The translations under genes were made by a program, and so were the position numbers. A DNA stretch of 64,000 bases, taken from NCBI RefSeq assembly GCF_001556105.1, contig NZ_LSIF01000083.1, positions 62,001 through 126,000 of the forward strand. The letters are read 5' to 3'. This DNA is from Pseudoxanthomonas mexicana (GTDB lineage: Bacteria > Pseudomonadota > Gammaproteobacteria > Xanthomonadales > Xanthomonadaceae). Position 1 is the stretch's first letter. Every line of letters starts with the position of its first letter. Below are positions 52,585 to 62,122 of this stretch, in pieces. Under the pieces are notes generated by a model that saw only the letters and a list, made by a program, of their open reading frames with translations, was not told where the DNA came from and ran no database searches.

Positions 52585-53988
52585 ATGAATCAAAACCGTA
52601 GCGCCCTGATCGTCGACGACGAACGCGACATCCGTGAACTGCTGACGCTGACGCTGGGCCGCATGGGCCTGCGCATCGACACCGCCGCCAACCTCGGCGA
52701 GGCCCGCGAACTGCTGGGCCGCAACACTTACGACCTGTGCTTTACCGACATGCGCCTGCCGGACGGCAACGGCATCGACCTGGTCAGCGAGATTTCGCGC
52801 AACCATCCCAGCACGCCGGTGGCCATGATCACCGCGTTCGGCAACATCGAACTGGCGGTGGAAGCGCTGAAGGCCGGTGCCTTCGACTTCGTCAGCAAGC
52901 CTGTGGATCTCACGGTCCTGCGCGGGCTGGTGAAGCACGCGCTGGAATTGAACAACAGCGAACGCGCTCCGCCCCCGCCCCCGCCGCCGGAACAGGCCAG
53001 TCGCCTGCTGGGCTCGTCGGCGGCGATGGATGGCCTGCGCGAGACCATCGGCAAGGTCGCCCGCAGCCAGGCGCCGGTCTACATCATGGGTGAGTCCGGC
53101 ACCGGCAAGGAGCTGGTCGCCCGCACCATCCACGAACAAGGCGCCCGCGCGCCGGGCCCGTTCATTCCGGTCAACTGCGGTGCGATTCCCGCCGAGCTGA
53201 TGGAAAGCGAATTCTTTGGCCACAAGAAAGGCAGCTTCACCGGTGCACACGCCGACAAGCTGGGCCTGTTCCAGGCGGCCAGCGGCGGCACGCTGTTCCT
53301 CGATGAGGTCGCCGAGCTGCCATTGCCGATGCAGGTGAAGCTGCTGCGCGCCATCCAGGAGAAAGCGGTGCGTCCGGTCGGCGCCGCCGGCGAAGTGCCG
53401 GTCGACGTGCGTATCCTGTCGGCCACCCACAAGGACCTGGGCGAACTGGCCGCCGATGGCCGCTTCCGCCACGACCTGTACTACCGCATCAACGTGATCG
53501 AGCTGCGCGTGCCGCCGCTGCGCGAGCGCACCGGCGACCTGGCCCAGCTGACCACCGCCATCCTGGAGCGCCTGGCCGCCCAGCACGGCCGGATGGCGCC
53601 GTCGGTATCGCCGGAAGCGATGGAGGCATTGGGGCGCTATCCGTTCCCGGGCAACGTGCGCGAGCTGGAGAACATCCTCGAGCGCGCACTGGCCATGTCG
53701 GAAGGCCACAGCATCGAGATCGACGACCTCTACCTGCCGCAGGCCCCGACCGGCAGGAAATTCGGCGGCGACTTCAGCCCCGGCGAAGTGGTGCGTGACG
53801 CACCCGGCGCGGTGGACGTGGACCCGGCGGCCGGCGGTGCCCTGCCCGACTACATCGAGCAGCTCGAGCGCGCCGCCATCCAGAAAGCGCTGGAAGACAA
53901 CCGCTGGAACAAGACCAAGGCGGCCGCGCAGTTGGGGATCACCTTCCGTGCTCTGCGCTACAAGCTCAAGAAGCTGGGGATGGAGTAG
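52585..53988 (+). CDS. pilR: Sigma-54 response regulator PilR
   Basis: 467-residue NtrC-type activator. The receiver domain has the phospho-acceptor D55 in CFTDMRLPDG. A proline-rich linker (PPPPPPP near residue 133) leads to the AAA+ domain with Walker A GESGTGKE, the sigma-54 contact loop GSFTGA and Walker B GGTLFLDE. A C-terminal Fis-type helix-turn-helix lies in NRWNKTKAAAQLGITFRALRYKL. It activates RpoN promoters such as those before the two pilin genes here. Confidence 0.97.
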   Translation: MNQNRSALIVDDERDIRELLTLTLGRMGLRIDTAANLGEARELLGRNTYDLCFTDMRLPDGNGIDLVSEISRNHPSTPVAMITAFGNIELAVEALKAGAFDFVSKPVDLTVLRGLVKHALELNNSERAPPPPPPPEQASRLLGSSAAMDGLRETIGKVARSQAPVYIMGESGTGKELVARTIHEQGARAPGPFIPVNCGAIPAELMESEFFGHKKGSFTGAHADKLGLFQAASGGTLFLDEVAELPLPMQVKLLRAIQEKAVRPVGAAGEVPVDVRILSATHKDLGELAADGRFRHDLYYRINVIELRVPPLRERTGDLAQLTTAILERLAAQHGRMAPSVSPEAMEALGRYPFPGNVRELENILERALAMSEGHSIEIDDLYLPQAPTGRKFGGDFSPGEVVRDAPGAVDVDPAAGGALPDYIEQLERAAIQKALEDNRWNKTKAAAQLGITFRALRYKLKKLGME

Positions 53989-54061
53989 GCCGGTCGAGGC
54001 CTTACGCCACACCTATATATATGTCTCGATGCAAACGTGCGCGGCATCGCACAGTGACCCG

Positions 54062-54080
54062 AGTGACGCGAAGCGTCACT
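54062..54080. promoter_or_regulatory. AGTGACGC palindrome downstream of pilR
   Basis: AGTGACGC-GAA-GCGTCACT is a perfect 8-bp inverted repeat 73 bp after pilR. Further TGAC half-sites flank it (TGACCC, CTGACGC, AGTCA). It may be a regulator site or a weak terminator (only TTTC follows). Confidence 0.45.
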
Positions 54081-54293
54081 TTCTGACGCAAGCAGTCATC
54101 TCACCAAGGGAGCGTCAGCGGATTGGCGGAGAGCGACCAGAAACGATCCATCGCTCAATGTGTGACACGAGCCGGGATTGGCGGCACTTCCCTGTACACA
54201 ACGCAAAAGAATGATGCGATAGTCACGCCCGACTTCGGTGTCAGGGCTTCTTCCCGGGGAAACGTGGGGGAATCGCTGGGGGTATCAGAAGTT

Positions 54294-54309
54294 GGCACGC
54301 ATCCTGCTC
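54294..54309 (+). promoter_or_regulatory. Sigma-54 (-24/-12) promoter of the first pilin gene
   Basis: TGGCAC-N5-CTGCT matches the RpoN consensus TGGCAC-N5-TTGCW with one mismatch; the GG and GC doublets have the required 12-bp spacing. It lies about 107 bp before the pilin ATG. Activation by PilR is inferred from the family. Confidence 0.85.
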
Positions 54310-54358
54310 CACATCACCTGCACGCGTCGTATGTTGTACGCGGCGCCCACGGTCCACG

Positions 54359-54383
54359 TAGGGACACGGGGCTTGTGTCCCTA
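54359..54383 (+). promoter_or_regulatory. Leader hairpin before pilA
   Basis: TAGGGACAC and GTGTCCCTA form a perfect 9-bp stem with a 7-nt loop in the expected 5' untranslated region, about 18 bp before the ribosome site and 32 bp before the start codon. It could stabilise the abundant pilin mRNA. Confidence 0.6.
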
Positions 54384-54415
54384 ACCATCAAGCCAATCCT
54401 GAAAGGGGAAATACC

Positions 54416-54781
54416 ATGAAGAAGAACGCCCAGGGCTTCACCCTGATCGAACTGATGATCGTCGTCGCCATCATCGCCATCCTGGCCGCCATCGCGCTGC
54501 CGGCGTACCAGAACTACACCCGCAAGTCGGCCAACCGCGCTTGCTTGGCAGAAGCCAAGGCCTACTCGAACACCGTGCTTGCCGACTTGAACGACGGCAA
54601 GGTTCCCTCGGCACCCAACTCTGGCGCCAATGCCGCTTGCACCGCACTGACGACCGGCGTTGGCCAGACGCTGTCGGCTCTCGGCACCCTGTCGGGCACC
54701 CCGCGCGCTCCGGGTGACGGCGCCATCAGCTGCAACCTGGCGACCGGCGGCAACTGCTCCATCACCGGCGGCACCAACTGA
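54416..54781 (+). CDS. pilA: Type IV major pilin (first paralogue)
   Basis: 121-residue type IVa prepilin. The leader MKKNAQG is cleaved after G7 to leave an N-methylated F8; E12 is the conserved glutamate of [27 protein letters not shown]. Four cysteines (43, 75, 106, 114) include a C-terminal pair ([11 protein letters not shown]) that probably closes the D-region. It is preceded by a sigma-54 promoter and a good ribosome site, and followed by a strong terminator. Likely polymerised by PilB/PilC after PilD processing. Confidence 0.95.
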
Positions 54782-54842
54782 GCCACCGTCCACTTGGTCC
54801 TCGATAGTTACTCGACGACTTCGTAACAACGACCGTTGCACT

Positions 54843-54874
54843 CAAACCCCGGCGCAGGCCGGGGTTTGTTTTTT
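54843..54874 (+). terminator. Strong intrinsic terminator after the first pilin
   Basis: CAAACCCCGGC and GCCGGGGTTTG form an 11-bp stem with a GCAG loop, followed by six T residues. This separates the first pilin from the methyltransferase unit. Confidence 0.93.
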
Positions 54875-54979
54875 CCGCCTTGTACAGCAGCGCGTAGCAT
54901 GGCTGCGCCGTGCCACGTCCTACATGCTCGGCCCCGCATCCGTGACAGTGCGCCTACTTCGTCCTAAATCCGGTTCCGC

Positions 54980-55600
54980 ATGAGCAAAGTTTCCAAGCAG
55001 TCCGTCATCCGCACCTACGGCCGTTACGCCCCGATCTACGACGTTCTGTTCGGCGCTATCCAGCGCACGGGATGCCGGAAGATGGCAGATGTCGTCTCCA
55101 GCCTGGAGGCCATGCGCGTCTTAGAAGTGGGAGTAGGCACTGGCCTCACCCTGAAGCTCTACCCTGAGGCCACTCACATTACGGGCATCGATCTGTCCGC
55201 CGAGATGCTTGAGCACGCGAGGCTGCGCGCCACCTCGCTACCCAAGCATTGCATTACGCTAGAAGTCATGGACGCGGAAAAGATGCAATTCGAAGACAAT
55301 GCGTTCGATTGCGTCACCGTGCCGTATGTCCTGTCAGTCACTCCAAATCCGGACCAGCTTACAACTGAAATTCGGCGCGTTTGCCGTCCTGGCGGACATA
55401 TTCTCATCGTCAACCACTTCAGCGGCAGCCGCATCTGGTGGTTAGCGGAACGACTGGTGCGATCTGTTGCCGACCGTATCGGATTCCGCTCCGATTTCGA
55501 TTACTCGCACCATATCCTGCAGCAGGATTGGACAGTCCTTTCCACACGGCCCGTCAGCCTGTTCGGCCTCTATCGACTCGTGGTGATCCGCAATGACTGA
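54980..55600 (+). CDS. SAM-dependent methyltransferase, phospholipid-N-methyltransferase-like
   Basis: 206-residue class I methyltransferase. Motif I is VLEVGVGTGLTLKLY, the acidic SAM-binding residue is in TGIDLSAEM, and motif IV is FDCVTVPYVLSVTPNP. The N-terminal VIRTYGRYAPIYDVLFGAIQ resembles Rhodobacter-type phosphatidylethanolamine N-methyltransferases (PmtA), which make phosphatidylcholine. That identity is an inference from recollection, and other small substrates are possible. Its end overlaps the next gene by 8 nt. Codon use is A/T-richer than in the pilS-pilR region. No good ribosome site is visible. Confidence 0.85.
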   Translation: MSKVSKQSVIRTYGRYAPIYDVLFGAIQRTGCRKMADVVSSLEAMRVLEVGVGTGLTLKLYPEATHITGIDLSAEMLEHARLRATSLPKHCITLEVMDAEKMQFEDNAFDCVTVPYVLSVTPNPDQLTTEIRRVCRPGGHILIVNHFSGSRIWWLAERLVRSVADRIGFRSDFDYSHHILQQDWTVLSTRPVSLFGLYRLVVIRND

Positions 55601-57551
55601 GATGCCGAAGCGTTCGCTCGCTTGGCGATTATTGATTGAAGCATTCGCCTGGCTGGTTCCGGCCAGCACGTTCCTTACAGCCTACACTTGGCATTTTGGC
55701 AACAATACGGCAGTCATCGCGCCACACTTATTCATAGTCTCCGCGCTGTGGGCAGGTAGCATCGGGCTGCGGGCGCTCGCAACAGGACTGATCCGCACGC
55801 GCCGTTGGACACCATACTTGGCCGTCGCGCTGGCTTTCACGCCTTGGGTGGTATTGATGGCCTGGTATGTGACGGCACTTGTGGGATTGTCGTCGTGGGG
55901 AAGAGTTACGACGCTACCAATTTTCAAGACATATGCAGGCCAGTATTCCTTCTTGCTGAACTCTCTGGGACTGCCCGGATGGCTGGCGTGGATGCCCCCG
56001 ATGCTGCTGATTGCGGCTGTAGCATTGCTCGGCATGTCTCCGCTCATGCGCCCCGACTGGAGTCGCGTGCTGTTCGATGCGACCACACGCGGAAAAGCTA
56101 TGGCGCTCGCTCTGATGCTCGCTGCGTTCCCCTGGATTCTGTTCAGCATGATTCACCTGACTGAGCCACTGCATCCGGAGGAGCCGATCGCGCTCAGTCT
56201 GTATCCGCAACTAGGCGCCATGAAAGAGAGTATTGCTTTCTCGTCGTCACCCGCGGTGAATGCGGCAGAAGCCAATGTATGGCGCACCTATGCTGCGGCG
56301 CCGAACAGCAGGCCGCGCAACGTAATCTTGATCGTGGGAGACGCACTGCGCGCTGACCACATGGGCGTATACGGTTATCCTCGCGACACCACGCCCTACC
56401 TGTCGTCGCTGGCCGAGAAGGGGACGCTGCAAGCCGTCGCGGGCACGCGCGCCGTCTGCTCCGAATCCATGTGCGGATTTATGGCGATGGCTGCGTCTCG
56501 CCCCATCCACACGATGCCTACCAAGCCTTTTACGCTTCACCAAGCATTGCGCAGGAACGGTTACACCGTACGAATGGTGCTGAGCGGCGACCACACCAAC
56601 TTCTATGGCCTGCGTGATCTCTATGGCGAAGTTGACAGCTACGTGGACGGTAGCGCCCAACCTGTCGGCTGGGGCGGCGACGGAGAATCGCTGGTCCGTT
56701 ACATCAATGACGACCAATTGGTTCTAGATGAGGTGGGCAAACTGCCCGCCGCTGACACGGCCCATCCTTTGATGCTGCAAATTGTGCTGATGTCCACCCA
56801 CGGATTGGGACCGCGCCACCCAGAGAACGTCCGTTTCAAGCCCTTCTTCAACTACTACGCTTGGTTCGGAAAGCAGGTACCGAAGTTGGGACCCACTCAA
56901 CGGCAAGCAATCGTTAACTTCTACGACAATGGCGTCTACCAGTTCGACCATTACGTCAGGCTGCTAATGGAGCAGCTCCGCGCAAAGGGCTACCTCGACA
57001 ACACGGTCGTAGTAATCACCGGCGATCATGGCGAAATGCTTGGTGAGAGCAATCTCGTTTCGCACGGTTTGGGGGTGCACGAGCCGACTCTACACATACC
57101 TCTCCTAATAGCTCGTTTCGGCTACGAGGCGCCCATCCTTCCTCGGCACCTGCTCACCTCGCAGATCGACATCGCGCCGACGATCATGGACGAACTGTCG
57201 ATCACTGCCCCCTCGACCTGGGAAGGACTGCCGCTGCAGGCTACCCGGGAGACGCGCACTGCTTATTTCCAGCAGGCTGCGGAGGCGGGCATCTACGAGC
57301 AAGGTACCGATGGCCGCGTCTATAAGTACTGGCGTGATTTCCGCGCAGATATGGATTTCGTCTTCGACATCGGTCACGATCCGGGTGAAAAGAGGAACAT
57401 GGCACGTGAGTTCCCTGAAGAGCAGCTGGCCTACTGGCGCGCCAAAGTCGCGCACGGTGGATTGCAGGTGGGGAGAAACGATGCGATCTCAATCGTAGTC
57501 CCTCTATTCAAACCAGACTCCACTCCAGCCCAGTCCACCCAAAAGAATTAG
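55593..57551 (+). CDS. Membrane-anchored sulfatase/phosphoethanolamine-transferase-like protein
   Basis: 652-residue protein of the alkaline-phosphatase superfamily. Five or so membrane helices fill residues 12-190 and the catalytic domain (about 240-600) lies outside the membrane. Probable metal ligands are D250 (VGDALRADH), H402 (STHGLG), D478-H479 (TGDHGE), H491 and H496. The nucleophile position is C289 in AVCSESMCGF: it keeps a Cys but lacks the CxPSR formylglycine signal of sulfatases, and EptA's Thr is absent too. A phospho-form or sulfate transferase is inferred. Translation is coupled to the methyltransferase. Confidence 0.82.
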   Translation: MTEMPKRSLAWRLLIEAFAWLVPASTFLTAYTWHFGNNTAVIAPHLFIVSALWAGSIGLRALATGLIRTRRWTPYLAVALAFTPWVVLMAWYVTALVGLSSWGRVTTLPIFKTYAGQYSFLLNSLGLPGWLAWMPPMLLIAAVALLGMSPLMRPDWSRVLFDATTRGKAMALALMLAAFPWILFSMIHLTEPLHPEEPIALSLYPQLGAMKESIAFSSSPAVNAAEANVWRTYAAAPNSRPRNVILIVGDALRADHMGVYGYPRDTTPYLSSLAEKGTLQAVAGTRAVCSESMCGFMAMAASRPIHTMPTKPFTLHQALRRNGYTVRMVLSGDHTNFYGLRDLYGEVDSYVDGSAQPVGWGGDGESLVRYINDDQLVLDEVGKLPAADTAHPLMLQIVLMSTHGLGPRHPENVRFKPFFNYYAWFGKQVPKLGPTQRQAIVNFYDNGVYQFDHYVRLLMEQLRAKGYLDNTVVVITGDHGEMLGESNLVSHGLGVHEPTLHIPLLIARFGYEAPILPRHLLTSQIDIAPTIMDELSITAPSTWEGLPLQATRETRTAYFQQAAEAGIYEQGTDGRVYKYWRDFRADMDFVFDIGHDPGEKRNMAREFPEEQLAYWRAKVAHGGLQVGRNDAISIVVPLFKPDSTPAQSTQKN

Positions 57552-57597
57552 GCGTGAAGTGACGATGATCACGTAATCGCGAGGCGTGCGATCTGGA

Positions 57598-57613
57598 TGG
57601 CATGTTCCTTGCT
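57598..57613 (+). promoter_or_regulatory. Sigma-54 promoter of the second pilin gene
   Basis: TGGCAT-N5-TTGCT is an almost perfect -24/-12 match (one mismatch in the first element) about 38 bp before the ATG at 57651. It gives the second pilin, and perhaps pilB-pilC-pilD, their own PilR-responsive promoter. Confidence 0.9.
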
Positions 57614-57650
57614 TTAGATTTCGCGGGAAATCGACTTGCGGGCTAGGACT

Positions 57651-57998
57651 ATGTCAAGAACGTCACGGGGTTTCACGCTCATCGAGCTTATGATCGTTGT
57701 CGCAATCATAGGAATTCTTAGCGCCATCGCATTTCCGGCTTACCAGAATTACAGCATCCGCTCTGCAAATCGCGCGTGCATGATGGAAGCCAAATCTTAT
57801 GCAAACGTCGCCCTGGCGAATCTTTACCTACAGGAAGCGGTACCTGCCCCTGCAAATAGCGCCTGCGCCGGGACCAGCACACCAGCAACGACCAGCGATA
57901 CGGTCACTGCTACCGCGAAAGGCTCGGGCGACGCCGCAGTATCCTGTCCGCTAAGCGCTGGTGCCACCTGTACCTATACGTCAGCGTCCGGAAACTGA
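57651..57998 (+). CDS. Type IV pilin (second paralogue)
   Basis: 115-residue prepilin with leader MSRTSRG and mature [27 protein letters not shown]. Its first helix and the SANRAC segment closely match the upstream pilin, as do the four cysteines (43, 72, 99, 107), but the rest differs, with many Ala, Thr and Ser. ATG at 57651 gives a standard 7-residue leader; TTG at 57636 is an alternative. It lies upstream of pilB and has its own sigma-54 promoter. It may be an alternative major pilin or a minor subunit. Confidence 0.93.
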
Positions 57999-58074
57999 CG
58001 CCGTATACTCCCAAGACGATCCCGCATCTCCGGCACCTTTTTCGACCGGAACGAACCGACAGGACTATCGAACC

Positions 58075-59808
58075 ATGAGCGCAGTGCCGACAACAAACCT
58101 CGTTGGCATCACCGGCCTGGCCAGGCGCTTGGTGCAGGATGGCGCCCTGGAAGAGTCCATCGCTCGATCCGCGATGACCAATGCCTCCGAGGCAAAGGTG
58201 CCTCTACCGCAGTGGATTGCCGAAAAACGGCTCGTCACCGCGCCGCAACTAGCTGCTGCCAATGCCATGGAGTTTGGCGTGCCGCTACTGGACGCACAGG
58301 CCTTCGACCCGACGCATGCCGCTCTCAAGCTAGTCAGCGAAGAGCTGATCTTGAAGCACCAAGTGCTTCCTCTTTTCAAACGTGGCGGCAAACTTTTCGT
58401 AGGCGTGGCGGATCCAACGCGGAGTCATGGTGCGCTGGACGAGATCAAGTTTCACACCAACCTCATCGTCGAGCCTGTGCTGGTGGATGAAGACCAGCTG
58501 CGCCGCACTCTCGATCAATGGCAAAGCTCCGCCAACAGCCTTTCCACCAACTTTGGCGATGACGATGATGGACTGGACAGCCTCGATGTTGATTCGACCG
58601 ATGAGGATGGCGGCAATGATAGCGCCGTCGACGCTAAGGGCGATGACACGCCAGTGGTGAAGTTCGTCAACAAGGTTTTGGTGGATGCCATCAAGCGCGG
58701 CGCGTCGGACATCCACTTCGAACCCTACGAAACCGACTATCGTGTCCGTTTGCGCGTGGACGGCATCCTGAAGCAGGTGGCCAAGGCACCGACAAAATTA
58801 AAAGATCGCATTGCAGCGCGCATCAAAGTGATGGCGCAACTTGATATCGCTGAGAAGCGGGTGCCGCAGGACGGTCGCATCAAGCTGAACCTTTCCAAGA
58901 CTAAACAGATGGACTTCCGCGTCAGCACACTGCCCACCCTATTCGGCGAGAAGGTGGTGCTGCGCATCCTAGACGGCAGCGCCGCCAAACTGGGCATTGA
59001 CAAGCTCGGTTACGAACCGGACCAACAGAAGCTGTTCGAGGACGCCATTCACAAGCCGTATGGGATGGTCTTGGTGACCGGCCCTACTGGCTCGGGCAAG
59101 ACCGTGAGCTTGTACACAGCGCTGGGCATTCTCAACGACGAAACGCGCAATATCTCAACTGCGGAAGACCCGGTGGAAATCCGTCTGCCCGGCGTCAATC
59201 AGGTGCAGCAGAACAGTCGTCGCGGCATGACCTTCGCCACTGCGCTGCGCAGCTTCCTGCGCCAGGATCCGGACATCATCATGGTCGGCGAAATCCGCGA
59301 TCTGGAAACGGCGGAAATCGCCATCAAGGCAGCTCAGACCGGTCATATGGTCTTGTCGACCTTGCATACGAACGACGCGCCGCAGACCATCGCTCGCCTG
59401 ATGAACATGGGAATCGCACCCTACAACATCACCAGCTCCGTGACATTGGTGATCGCCCAGCGGTTGGCCCGGCGACTATGCAGCAAGTGCAAGCGCCCCG
59501 TGGACCTACCACCCAATGCGCTGGTCGCGGAGGGCTTCAATGAGGCAGAGGTACAGGCTGGCTTTACCACTTACGAGGCTGTCGGTTGTGACGAGTGCAC
59601 AAGCGGCTACAAGGGCCGCACGGGTATCTACCAGGTGATGCCGATGAGCGAGGCCATTCAGGAAATTGTATTGGAGGGCGGCAATGCCTTGCAGATCGCC
59701 GAGGCGGCCAACAAGGTGGGTATCCGCGACCTACGCCAATCCGCACTATTGAAGGTCCGCAACGGCATCACCAGCCTGGCGGAGATCAATCGCGTCACCA
59801 AAGATTGA
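58075..59808 (+). CDS. pilB: Type IV pilus extension ATPase PilB
   Basis: 577-residue GspE-family hexameric ATPase powering pilus extension. N-terminal MshEN-type domains precede the core with an Asp/Glu-rich insert near 160-195. Core motifs: Walker A GPTGSGKT, Asp box AEDPVEIRLPG, Walker B GEIRDLETA, His box TGHMVLSTLHTND, and a zinc-binding tetracysteine CSKC...CDEC. ATG at 58075 is used; the frame is open earlier without homology. Confidence 0.97.
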   Translation: MSAVPTTNLVGITGLARRLVQDGALEESIARSAMTNASEAKVPLPQWIAEKRLVTAPQLAAANAMEFGVPLLDAQAFDPTHAALKLVSEELILKHQVLPLFKRGGKLFVGVADPTRSHGALDEIKFHTNLIVEPVLVDEDQLRRTLDQWQSSANSLSTNFGDDDDGLDSLDVDSTDEDGGNDSAVDAKGDDTPVVKFVNKVLVDAIKRGASDIHFEPYETDYRVRLRVDGILKQVAKAPTKLKDRIAARIKVMAQLDIAEKRVPQDGRIKLNLSKTKQMDFRVSTLPTLFGEKVVLRILDGSAAKLGIDKLGYEPDQQKLFEDAIHKPYGMVLVTGPTGSGKTVSLYTALGILNDETRNISTAEDPVEIRLPGVNQVQQNSRRGMTFATALRSFLRQDPDIIMVGEIRDLETAEIAIKAAQTGHMVLSTLHTNDAPQTIARLMNMGIAPYNITSSVTLVIAQRLARRLCSKCKRPVDLPPNALVAEGFNEAEVQAGFTTYEAVGCDECTSGYKGRTGIYQVMPMSEAIQEIVLEGGNALQIAEAANKVGIRDLRQSALLKVRNGITSLAEINRVTKD

Positions 59809-59995: not shown

Positions 59996-61255
59996 ATGGC
60001 CGTGACCCGTTCCGCTGCGAAAACCGCCTCCGCGCCCGTGCGCGAGAACCCCCTGAACCTGTTCGTCTGGGAGGGCACCGACAAGCGCGGCGTCAAGATG
60101 AAGGGCGAGCAGCAGTCTAAGAATGCCAACTTCCTGCGGGCCGAGCTGCGCAAGCAGGGCATTACGCCGACAGTCGTCAAGGTCAAGCCGAAGCCGCTGT
60201 TCGGCGCGGCAGGAAAGACCGTCTCCGCTAAGGAGATCGCGTTCTTTAGCCGACAGCTAGCTACGATGATGAAGTCGGGCGTACCGATGGTTTCCTCTCT
60301 GGAGATCATCGAGGGTGGACAGAAAAATCCGCGGATGAGCAAGATGGTGCAGCAGATCCGCTTCGATATCGAGGGTGGCTCCTCGCTGTATGAGGCTATT
60401 AGCAAGCACCCGGTGCAGTTCGATGAGCTATATCGCAACTTGGTGCGCGCTGGCGAGTCTGCAGGCGTGCTTGAGACTGTGCTCGACACCATCGCCAGTT
60501 ACAAGGAGAACCTGGAAGCCCTGAAGGGCAAGATAAAGAAAGCGCTCTTCTATCCCACAGCGGTTATGGCAGTCGCAATTCTGGTGTGCGCCGTCATTCT
60601 TATCTACGTAGTGCCCGTATTTGAAGATACCTTCAAAGGGTTCGGCACCGAGCTCCCTGCATTTACACAGCTCGTAGTGAATATGTCCCGCTTCATGGTC
60701 AGCTGGTGGTGGGCATTGTTGATTCTTGTTGTGGGTGCTGGTTTTCTAGGAGTATCTCTTTTCAAGCGCTCGCCAGCGTTCCAGCATGCCGTTGATCGCT
60801 TCATTCTCAAAGTGCCCGTGATCGGTCAGATCATGCACAACTCGTCGATAGCGCGCTTCGCGCGCACGACGGCGGTAACGTTCAAAGCTGGCGTGCCATT
60901 GGTTGAGGCGTTGGACACGGTAGCAGGCGCAACGGGCAACACTGTCTACGAGAAAGCCGTTCATCGCATGCGCGACGACGTTTCGGTAGGCTATCCGCTG
61001 AACATGGCAATGAAGCAGACACAGCAGTTTCCACACATGGTCGTTCAGATGACGGCCATCGGCGAAGAAGCGGGTGCGTTGGATACGATGCTTTTCAAAG
61101 TGGCCGATTACTTTGAGCAAGAGGTAAACAATGCGGTTGATGCATTGTCCAGCTTGCTGGAACCATTCATCATGGTCATCATCGGCGTGCTTGTAGGCGG
61201 CATGGTAATCGCAATGTATCTGCCCATCTTCAAGATCGCAGCGACAGCCGGCTGA
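59996..61255 (+). CDS. pilC: Type IV pilus inner-membrane platform protein PilC
   Basis: 419-residue GspF-family protein that anchors the pilus motor in the inner membrane. Two GspF repeats have a cytoplasmic part (SRQLATMMKSGVPMVSSLEII; ARTTAVTFKAGVPLVEALDTV) and three membrane helices, with family signature VVQMTAIGEEAGALDTMLFKVADYFE. ATG at 59996. Preceded by a 187-bp spacer containing a GTCCGG-CCGGAC inverted repeat. A/T-richer than pilD. Confidence 0.97.
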   Translation: MAVTRSAAKTASAPVRENPLNLFVWEGTDKRGVKMKGEQQSKNANFLRAELRKQGITPTVVKVKPKPLFGAAGKTVSAKEIAFFSRQLATMMKSGVPMVSSLEIIEGGQKNPRMSKMVQQIRFDIEGGSSLYEAISKHPVQFDELYRNLVRAGESAGVLETVLDTIASYKENLEALKGKIKKALFYPTAVMAVAILVCAVILIYVVPVFEDTFKGFGTELPAFTQLVVNMSRFMVSWWWALLILVVGAGFLGVSLFKRSPAFQHAVDRFILKVPVIGQIMHNSSIARFARTTAVTFKAGVPLVEALDTVAGATGNTVYEKAVHRMRDDVSVGYPLNMAMKQTQQFPHMVVQMTAIGEEAGALDTMLFKVADYFEQEVNNAVDALSSLLEPFIMVIIGVLVGGMVIAMYLPIFKIAATAG

Positions 61256-61258
61256 TTC

Positions 61259-62122
61259 GTGGCATTCCTCGATCAGCACCCCGAACTGGGGTTCCCGGTA
61301 GTCGCAGGCCTCGGCCTGCTGGTAGGCAGCTTCCTCAACGTGGTCATCCTGCGGCTGCCGCGGCGGCTCGAATGGGAGTGGAAGCGCGACGCGCGCGAGG
61401 TGCTGGAGGAGCCGGAGCTCTACGACCCACCGCCCCCGGGCATCGTGGTCGAGCGCTCGCACTGCCCGCATTGCAAGACGGCGCTGTCCTGGTACGAGAA
61501 CATCCCGCTGTTCAGCTGGCTGGCCCTGCGTGGCAAGTGTCGGCACTGCAAGACACCGATCTCGCCGCAATACCCGCTGGTCGAACTGCTTACCGCCGTG
61601 CTGGCCGTGGCATCGGTATGGCGCTTCGGCTTCGGCTGGCAAGGTTTCGGCGCGGCCCTGCTGAGTTGCTATCTGGTGGCGCTGAGCGGGATCGACCTGC
61701 GCACGCGGTTGTTGCCGGACCAGCTGACCCTGCCGCTGATGTGGCTGGGGCTGATTGGCAGCCTCGACAATCTCTACATGCCTGCCAAGCCCGCCTTGCT
61801 GGGCGCGATCGCGGGCTATGCCTCGCTGTGGCTGGTGTGGTGGATCTTCAAGCAGGTCACCGGCAAGGAAGGCATGGGCCGCGGCGATTTCAAGCTGCTG
61901 GCAGCGCTGGGCGCGTGGGTGGGGTTGAGCGGCGTGTTGCCCATCATCCTGTTCTCCTCGCTGGTGGGCGCCGTGGTTGGCTCGGTCTGGCTGGCCATGA
62001 AAGGGCGCGACCGCGCCACGCCGATCCCGTTCGGACCCTATCTGGCGATCGCAGGCTGGATCGTCTTCTTCTGGGGCCAGCAGATCGTCGATGCGTACCT
62101 GCAGTTCGCGGGCTTGAAGTAA
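61259..62122 (+). CDS. pilD: Prepilin leader peptidase/N-methyltransferase PilD
   Basis: 287-residue membrane aspartic protease that cleaves prepilin leaders and methylates the new N-terminus. A cytoplasmic zinc-type four-cysteine domain (CPHC...CRHC) follows the first helix. The catalytic aspartates are in SGIDLRTRLLPD and GRGDFKLLA. The start is GTG at 61259, 3 bp beyond the pilC stop. Here base composition returns to GC-rich. Followed by coaE. Confidence 0.97.
   Translation: MAFLDQHPELGFPVVAGLGLLVGSFLNVVILRLPRRLEWEWKRDAREVLEEPELYDPPPPGIVVERSHCPHCKTALSWYENIPLFSWLALRGKCRHCKTPISPQYPLVELLTAVLAVASVWRFGFGWQGFGAALLSCYLVALSGIDLRTRLLPDQLTLPLMWLGLIGSLDNLYMPAKPALLGAIAGYASLWLVWWIFKQVTGKEGMGRGDFKLLAALGAWVGLSGVLPIILFSSLVGAVVGSVWLAMKGRDRATPIPFGPYLAIAGWIVFFWGQQIVDAYLQFAGLK

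Follow-up and report, generated by a model that had tools for sequence, protein, structure and literature searches.

Two genes lying between two major-type pilin genes, one encoding a PmtA-like methyltransferase and the other a predicted head-group transferase of the AlkP superfamily, form a real and recurrent pair, most likely a module that modifies pilin with phospho-forms and has a lipid methyltransferase dedicated to it. We put the probability that the pair modifies pilin with phospho-forms, and does so with its own supply of donor, at roughly 0.6. This reading is built on gene order, on domain families, on intact active-site positions, and on a linkage to PmtA and pilin genes that is non-random.

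In the proposed mechanism, the PmtA-like protein would act in the cytosol, methylating the amino group of inner-membrane PE to yield mono- and dimethyl-PE and possibly phosphatidylcholine. The membrane-anchored transferase, acting in the periplasm, would load Ser292 with the head group, phospho-(methyl)ethanolamine or phosphocholine, and hand it to Ser or Thr residues of the neighbouring pilins. We infer which lipid PmtA methylates, that the methylated lipid is the donor and that pilin is the acceptor.

The gene pair within the pil locus

In the window (the whole 64-kb stretch of DNA that was analysed), the gene for the 206-aa methyltransferase (54980..55600, + strand) and that for the 652-aa transferase (55593..57551, + strand) share 8 nt (55593-55600) according to the ORF list. 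They are flanked by pilin 1 (54416..54781, + strand; a 121-aa precursor, Pfam N_methyl E 9.9e-11) and pilin 2 (57651..57998, + strand; a 115-aa precursor, Pfam N_methyl E 6.3e-10). The pilR gene for a sigma-54 activator (52585..53988, + strand; Pfam Sigma54_activat, Response_reg and HTH_8) lies upstream, and pilB, encoding the extension ATPase (58075..59808, + strand; Pfam T2SSE and MshEN), lies downstream, followed by pilC (59996-61255) and pilD (61259-62122). The original prediction had described this arrangement (the 8-nt overlap, the two flanking pilins, pilR upstream and pilB downstream), and the ORFs and Pfam matches place every part of it at these coordinates. The ORF caller started pilin 2 at a TTG (57636); the ATG at 57651 is the more plausible start.

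The pattern TGGCAYRNNNNYTGCT, which describes sigma-54-type (-24/-12) promoter-like sites, matched twice in the 64-kb window, compared with 0.07 matches expected, and one match lies 5' of each pilin gene (54293..54308 and 57598..57613, both + strand). These putative, near-consensus sites would fit control of both pilins by PilR. The same scan of the window revealed no such site 5' of the gene pair, and a simple scan from 54000 to 58300 revealed no sigma-70 promoter-like site. A terminator-like hairpin (54843..54868, + strand), with an 11-pair stem followed by TTTTTT, comes after pilin 1 and sets it apart from the gene pair, which counts against the module; three terminator-like sites were found in all versus 3.4 in shuffled sequences, the two others having 7- and 5-pair stems. 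The GC content of the cassette is 56-60%, compared to 66-70% for pilS and pilR. As that of pilB and pilC is just as low, we dropped the interpretation of the cassette as a low-GC island and make no such claim.

The 206-aa protein is, on the basis of its sequence, a PmtA-like, SAM-dependent phospholipid N-methyltransferase that probably acts on PE. The solved protein closest to it, the PE N-methyltransferase 8ys9 of the Rhodobacter PmtA type, matches residues 8-177 with an E value of 6.6e-33 and stands clear of other methyltransferases, the next relative having 8.8e-12. The PmtA family NF045882 was matched at E 2.8e-42 with 144.8 of 390 bits, below the curated equivalog cut-off. Hydropathy gave no membrane segment (top 19-residue value, 1.26). 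The window gene differs from the Rhodobacter-type gene in adjoining the gene for a pilin-locus transferase. The PmtA of Xanthomonas campestris is placed with the Sinorhizobium type in a figure legend of PMC10434233 (Fig. 6).

Linkage of the transferase to PmtA and to prepilin genes

Relatives were gathered using the transferase sequence alone, resulting in 32 distinct loci from 22 genomes; these comprise 21 loci of a 79-locus set and 11 new ones, with the repeats L080, L081 and L087 left out. The other 58 loci of the 79 (L022-L079) were excluded because their AlkP proteins are more distant; 1 of these 58 has a prepilin gene no more than 6 kb away, and 1 of 58 a PmtA gene within 500 nt. The excluded loci include two borderline cases, L026 (E 2e-50) and L035 (E 2e-52); if they were counted, prepilins would be found at 20/34 loci and PmtA at 19/34.

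In 18 of the 32 loci, a PmtA gene is found no more than 500 nt from the transferase gene, on the same strand in 17, and in 16 of these 18 the longest ORFs of the two either overlap or have 29 nt or less between them. PmtA of the same type (E 1e-20) was found in 12 of the 22 genomes, as a single match in each, and is adjacent to the transferase in 11; in Vandammella (G006) it lies away from it. Among 279 genomes of the Luteimonas order, a sample centred on G002, this PmtA type (E 1e-35) is present in two, G002 and G008, both times beside the transferase. The original prediction had treated the two genes as a functional pair, and their co-occurrence, at 18 of 32 loci and in both of the 2 PmtA-bearing genomes among the 279, speaks in its favour. 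When the 120 listed homologues of each protein were compared, 21 transferases shared the exact size of the longest contig with a listed PmtA versus about 1.4 expected. The distances of the two proteins also co-vary (Mantel r 0.79 for 17 of 19 pairs, the shortened L007 and the oddly arranged L019 being left out; 0 of 5000 permutations were as high), although part of this correlation will be due to common descent of the genomes.

At the same time, an adjacent PmtA is absent from 14 of the 32 loci, and 10 of the 22 genomes have no PmtA of the same type at E 1e-20; methylation is therefore not obligatory for the transferase family. Seven PmtA-less genomes, two of them Pseudomonas, carry the transferase near a pilin (L001, L009, L082-L085 and L091), where the enzyme may draw on plain PE or on phosphatidylcholine made in some other way. 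A second PmtA 3 kb off in L016 means that PmtA is not always present in a single copy. On the tree, PmtA linkage requires at least 7 changes and is therefore not the mark of a single clade; the window falls together with the Luteimonas locus L002 and with L001, a Pseudomonas locus that lacks PmtA (support 99/97). Residues R60, W156, Y421, S523 and Q560 were considered as markers distinguishing PmtA-linked from PmtA-less transferases, but they are weak and confounded by phylogeny.

These seven genomes are what one would expect if the transferase added plain phosphoethanolamine to pilin and PmtA were a travelling lipid gene that does not set the head group, and known relatives are described as using PE (available text of PMC10525099). 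We consider this explanation unlikely, as PmtA, in the 12 of the 22 genomes that have it, is the sole match of its type and sits next to the transferase in 11, overlaps or closely abuts it (29 nt or less) at 16 of 18 loci, and in the 279 genomes of the order occurs only beside it.

The second link is that to pilin genes. The transferase has a prepilin gene no more than 6 kb away in 20 of the 32 loci and 16 of the 22 genomes, the genomes without one being G007 (where it is at 7 kb), G580, G684, G542, G871 and G1116. In the control, the same scan applied to other PF00884 genes (40 of 74 such places, in 13 of the genomes) revealed a prepilin within 9 kb in 0 of 40, some loci of both the control and the test set being shortened by contig ends. 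The original prediction would have been undermined by homologues lying consistently outside pil loci, and this is not the case (16/22 genomes versus 0/40 controls). A strict prepilin DNA motif, examined in 16 of the 22 genomes, had a match within 6 kb in 11 of 16 (G002-G006, G008-G010, G692, G730 and G805), compared with 0.21 expected from motif density; with a looser protein scan of the same 16 genomes, a prepilin was found near the transferase in 14, and in 0 of 40 places in its own control. The order pilin-PmtA-transferase-pilin recurs in Variovorax (L008) and in G730 (L088), both on tree branches separate from that of the window.

Other arrangements exist. PmtA-transferase pairs at L005, L006, L019 and L086 have no prepilin in the 9 kb searched, and the nearest prepilin to the L012 pair is at 7 kb; the pairs L003 and L010 are on contigs of 6.0 and 4.3 kb, and L021 is also on a short contig (4-6 kb). 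With these pairs away from pilins and many transferases without PmtA, neither link is strict; the transferase-pilin linkage is non-random all the same. In L085 (7044-12293), two AlkP genes lie between two pilins, the second having only a weak Pfam Sulfatase match, and in L084 (6447-11482), one pilin is flanked by two transferase-family genes. A Bacteroidetes MAG (L026, 7709-10170) carries an overlapping PmtA-like/AlkP pair; no prepilin was found there and the C-x-E-S-x-C loop is absent, and the two proteins may act on targets other than pilin.

The stretch upstream of pilB was compared in 40 of the 42 relatives top-ranked by PilB (G002 and G1580 were left out). A pilin lies directly 5' of pilB in 12 of the 40, and the rest have a variable stretch there. 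In L145, whose PilB is 82% identical, a 558-aa CptA-like PEtn transferase is encoded right behind the pilin, 5' of pilB. The presence at this position of a second PEtn-type transferase, from another subfamily, supports phospho-decoration of pilin. Other occupants include a glycosyltransferase, a polysaccharide-synthesis protein and an amine-oxidase-like protein. Together, these findings suggest that enzymes modifying pilin are exchanged at the site between pilin and pilB.

Several further proteins were noticed in this stretch or near pilins. Seven loci (L134, L141, L143, L154, L165, L170 and L171) contain 10 ORFs for proteins of 615-787 aa in which 6-9 membrane segments are predicted, and each locus has one or more copies adjoining a pilin; the members scanned matched no Pfam or NCBIfam family except for one weak TPR match, and they are candidate pilin-modifying enzymes. 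L147 (5833-9811) and L166 encode, between pilin and pilB, a multi-helix protein of 632-658 aa without a Pfam match, and one small ORF beyond it a related ORF of 513-514 aa, amine-oxidase-like in L147. Spermidine-synthase-like proteins are encoded near pilins in L011 (5835-8897), L015 (5270-8347) and L145 (5950-7479), those of L011 and L015 carrying MFS-type parts, and a polyamine-type pilin modification is possible.

A further explanation is that the pair decorates some other envelope target, such as LPS, lipid A, a glycan or another exported protein, and merely shares the pil locus. The pairs without a near prepilin (including L012 and the Bacteroidetes MAG) are in line with this, and so are the reported activities of EptA and MCR-1, full-length fold matches of the transferase, on lipid A and of PptA on periplasmic lipoproteins in addition to pilin (both from the available part of PMC10525099). 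However, another target is made improbable by the presence of a prepilin gene no more than 6 kb away in 16 of 22 genomes versus none of the 40 control AlkP genes, by the pilin-pair-pilin order in the window plus two more genomes, and by the second type of PEtn transferase adjoining a pilin in L145.

Fold and active site of the transferase

The 652-aa protein has a Pfam Sulfatase (AlkP) domain. In a single-sequence search its best solved relatives are the PEtn transferases 6bnc/6bne (E 2.7e-15); in a profile search, the sulfatase 6hr5 (3.2e-21) is slightly ahead of 6bnc/6bne (8.5e-20), and LtaS-type 2w8d (8.9e-8) is far below 6bne. The AlphaFold model (pLDDT 83.2, pTM 0.83) has five helices (6-34, 39-66, 73-102, 129-148 and 166-189) making up a membrane domain, followed by the AlkP domain, which, from what holds for the family, would face the periplasm. 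In the Foldseek ranking, the full-length matches 9nww (MCR-1) and 5fgn (EptA) come first and fifth. VIA-align ranked a sulfatase first for the model, and the fold scores leave PEtn transferases and sulfatases unseparated.

Residues D250, D478, H479, H403 and H491 are invariant in all 34 aligned rows (the window plus relatives) and pair with the metal ligands and second-site His residues of EptA in the profile alignment, with Asp (D250) in place of Glu. The corresponding EptA residues are given as Glu240/Asp452/His453 and His383/His465, with Thr280 as the nucleophile and a Cys276-Cys286 bond (available text of PMC10525099). Position 292 is Ser in 31 of 34 rows and Thr in 3, either of which can be the nucleophile (Thr, or Ser as in BcsG); the assignment of S292 is based on its position and on a Cys bracket, the loop being gapped in the profile alignment. 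The bracketing residues, C289 and C294, are the only two Cys of the protein, each present in 33 of 34 rows. That this protein is a membrane transferase akin to PptA had been predicted from its family; the comparison with EptA is favourable, with metal, His and nucleophile positions all kept.

The AlkP protein could also move another head group, for example phosphoglycerol as transferred by meningococcal PptB, or it could be a hydrolase or sulfatase. Its fold is common to sulfatases and LtaS, and both VIA-align and the profile search put a sulfatase first. However, the formylglycine motif of type I sulfatases (C/S-x-P/A-x-R) is not present, CSESM standing at 289-293 instead, and the membrane domain, the EptA-like nucleophile and His positions, the low profile rank of LtaS-type 2w8d and the partnership with a PE-methyltransferase all argue against these other chemistries, leaving them very improbable.

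Judged by its sequence, the transferase belongs to a rare clade of its own. The clade was found in 6/397, 7/399, 4/390 and 2/369 genomes in surveys that scored up to 3 candidates per genome and may miss weak members, and against the lipid A PEtn transferase family NF028537 the protein scored 58.5 of 500 bits, below the curated cut-off. No relative was confirmed in viral contigs and none was found in plasmids at E 1e-20, and a viral or plasmid origin was dropped for this reason. Because of this rarity, a single window proves little, which is a point in favour of the genes being chance neighbours without joint function, but the counts of pilin and PmtA linkage and the Mantel co-variation make that explanation almost negligible.

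Relation to known systems

Our preferred reading can be carried further. As a more tentative proposal, to which we give slightly less than even odds, the pair would be a self-contained module producing phosphatidylcholine (or methylated PE), whose head group it puts on type IV pilin; it would then be the first example of a protein phospho-form derived from a methylated phospholipid, and probably a model for how Neisseria pilin comes by its phosphocholine. In a literature search whose scope left out most subscription journals and bioRxiv, we found no paper reporting a PmtA/AlkP pair at a pilin locus.

The pair bears on the source of Neisseria pilin phosphocholine and on whether phosphatidylcholine can be its donor. 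PptA, like the window protein, is a membrane transferase of the AlkP superfamily, and it puts zwitterionic phospho-forms, thought to be phospholipid-derived, on pilin. Compared by description, the window clade carries Ser where the nucleophile is placed and has Asp (D250) instead of Glu, and the window transferase differs from PptA in lying inside the pil locus with an overlapping pmtA-like gene. PptA is said to cluster loosely with EptB among PEtn transferases, and a 2023 article states, in its available part, that the pathway supplying its donor remains to be identified (both PMC10434233). The pilin of gonococci mutated in pilus assembly carries PE, mono- and dimethyl-PE and phosphocholine, and the mono- and dimethyl forms were taken to implicate a methyltransferase pathway; the available part of this 2014 article also notes no established case of a phosphatidylcholine head group as the precursor of LPS or protein phospho-forms (PMC4010543). 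By analogy, this series would be the ladder expected from a methylated-lipid donor.

Two results reported for Neisseria point the other way: inactivation of a Rhodobacter-type PmtA homologue in the meningococcus left ChoP unaltered, and gonococcal PptA expressed in phosphatidylcholine-making P. aeruginosa placed PE, not PC, on pilin (available text of PMC10434233 and PMC4010543). It has also been objected that methylation of pilin-bound PE in the periplasm would be without SAM (PMC4010543, as far as its text is available). This objection does not apply to the window pair, because a cytosolic PmtA would methylate the lipid ahead of the head-group transfer. With a lipid methyltransferase and a pilin-locus head-group transferase paired in nature, the donor question becomes testable in an environmental bacterium.

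The transferase resembles EptA, MCR and ICR-Mc in combining membrane helices with an AlkP domain that has the same metal and nucleophile positions. It differs from them in its 15-20% identity, its modest TM-scores, its scores far under lipid A transferase cut-offs and its linkage to pilins; it has two Cys, whereas Neisseria EptA is described as having five disulfides. A parallel of another kind is found at the pilA loci of Pseudomonas aeruginosa, which carry TfpO/TfpW-type glycosylation genes. There, too, a modification enzyme adjoins its pilin and is exchanged between strains, but in the window a phospho-form rather than a sugar is predicted, and a lipid methyltransferase is attached.
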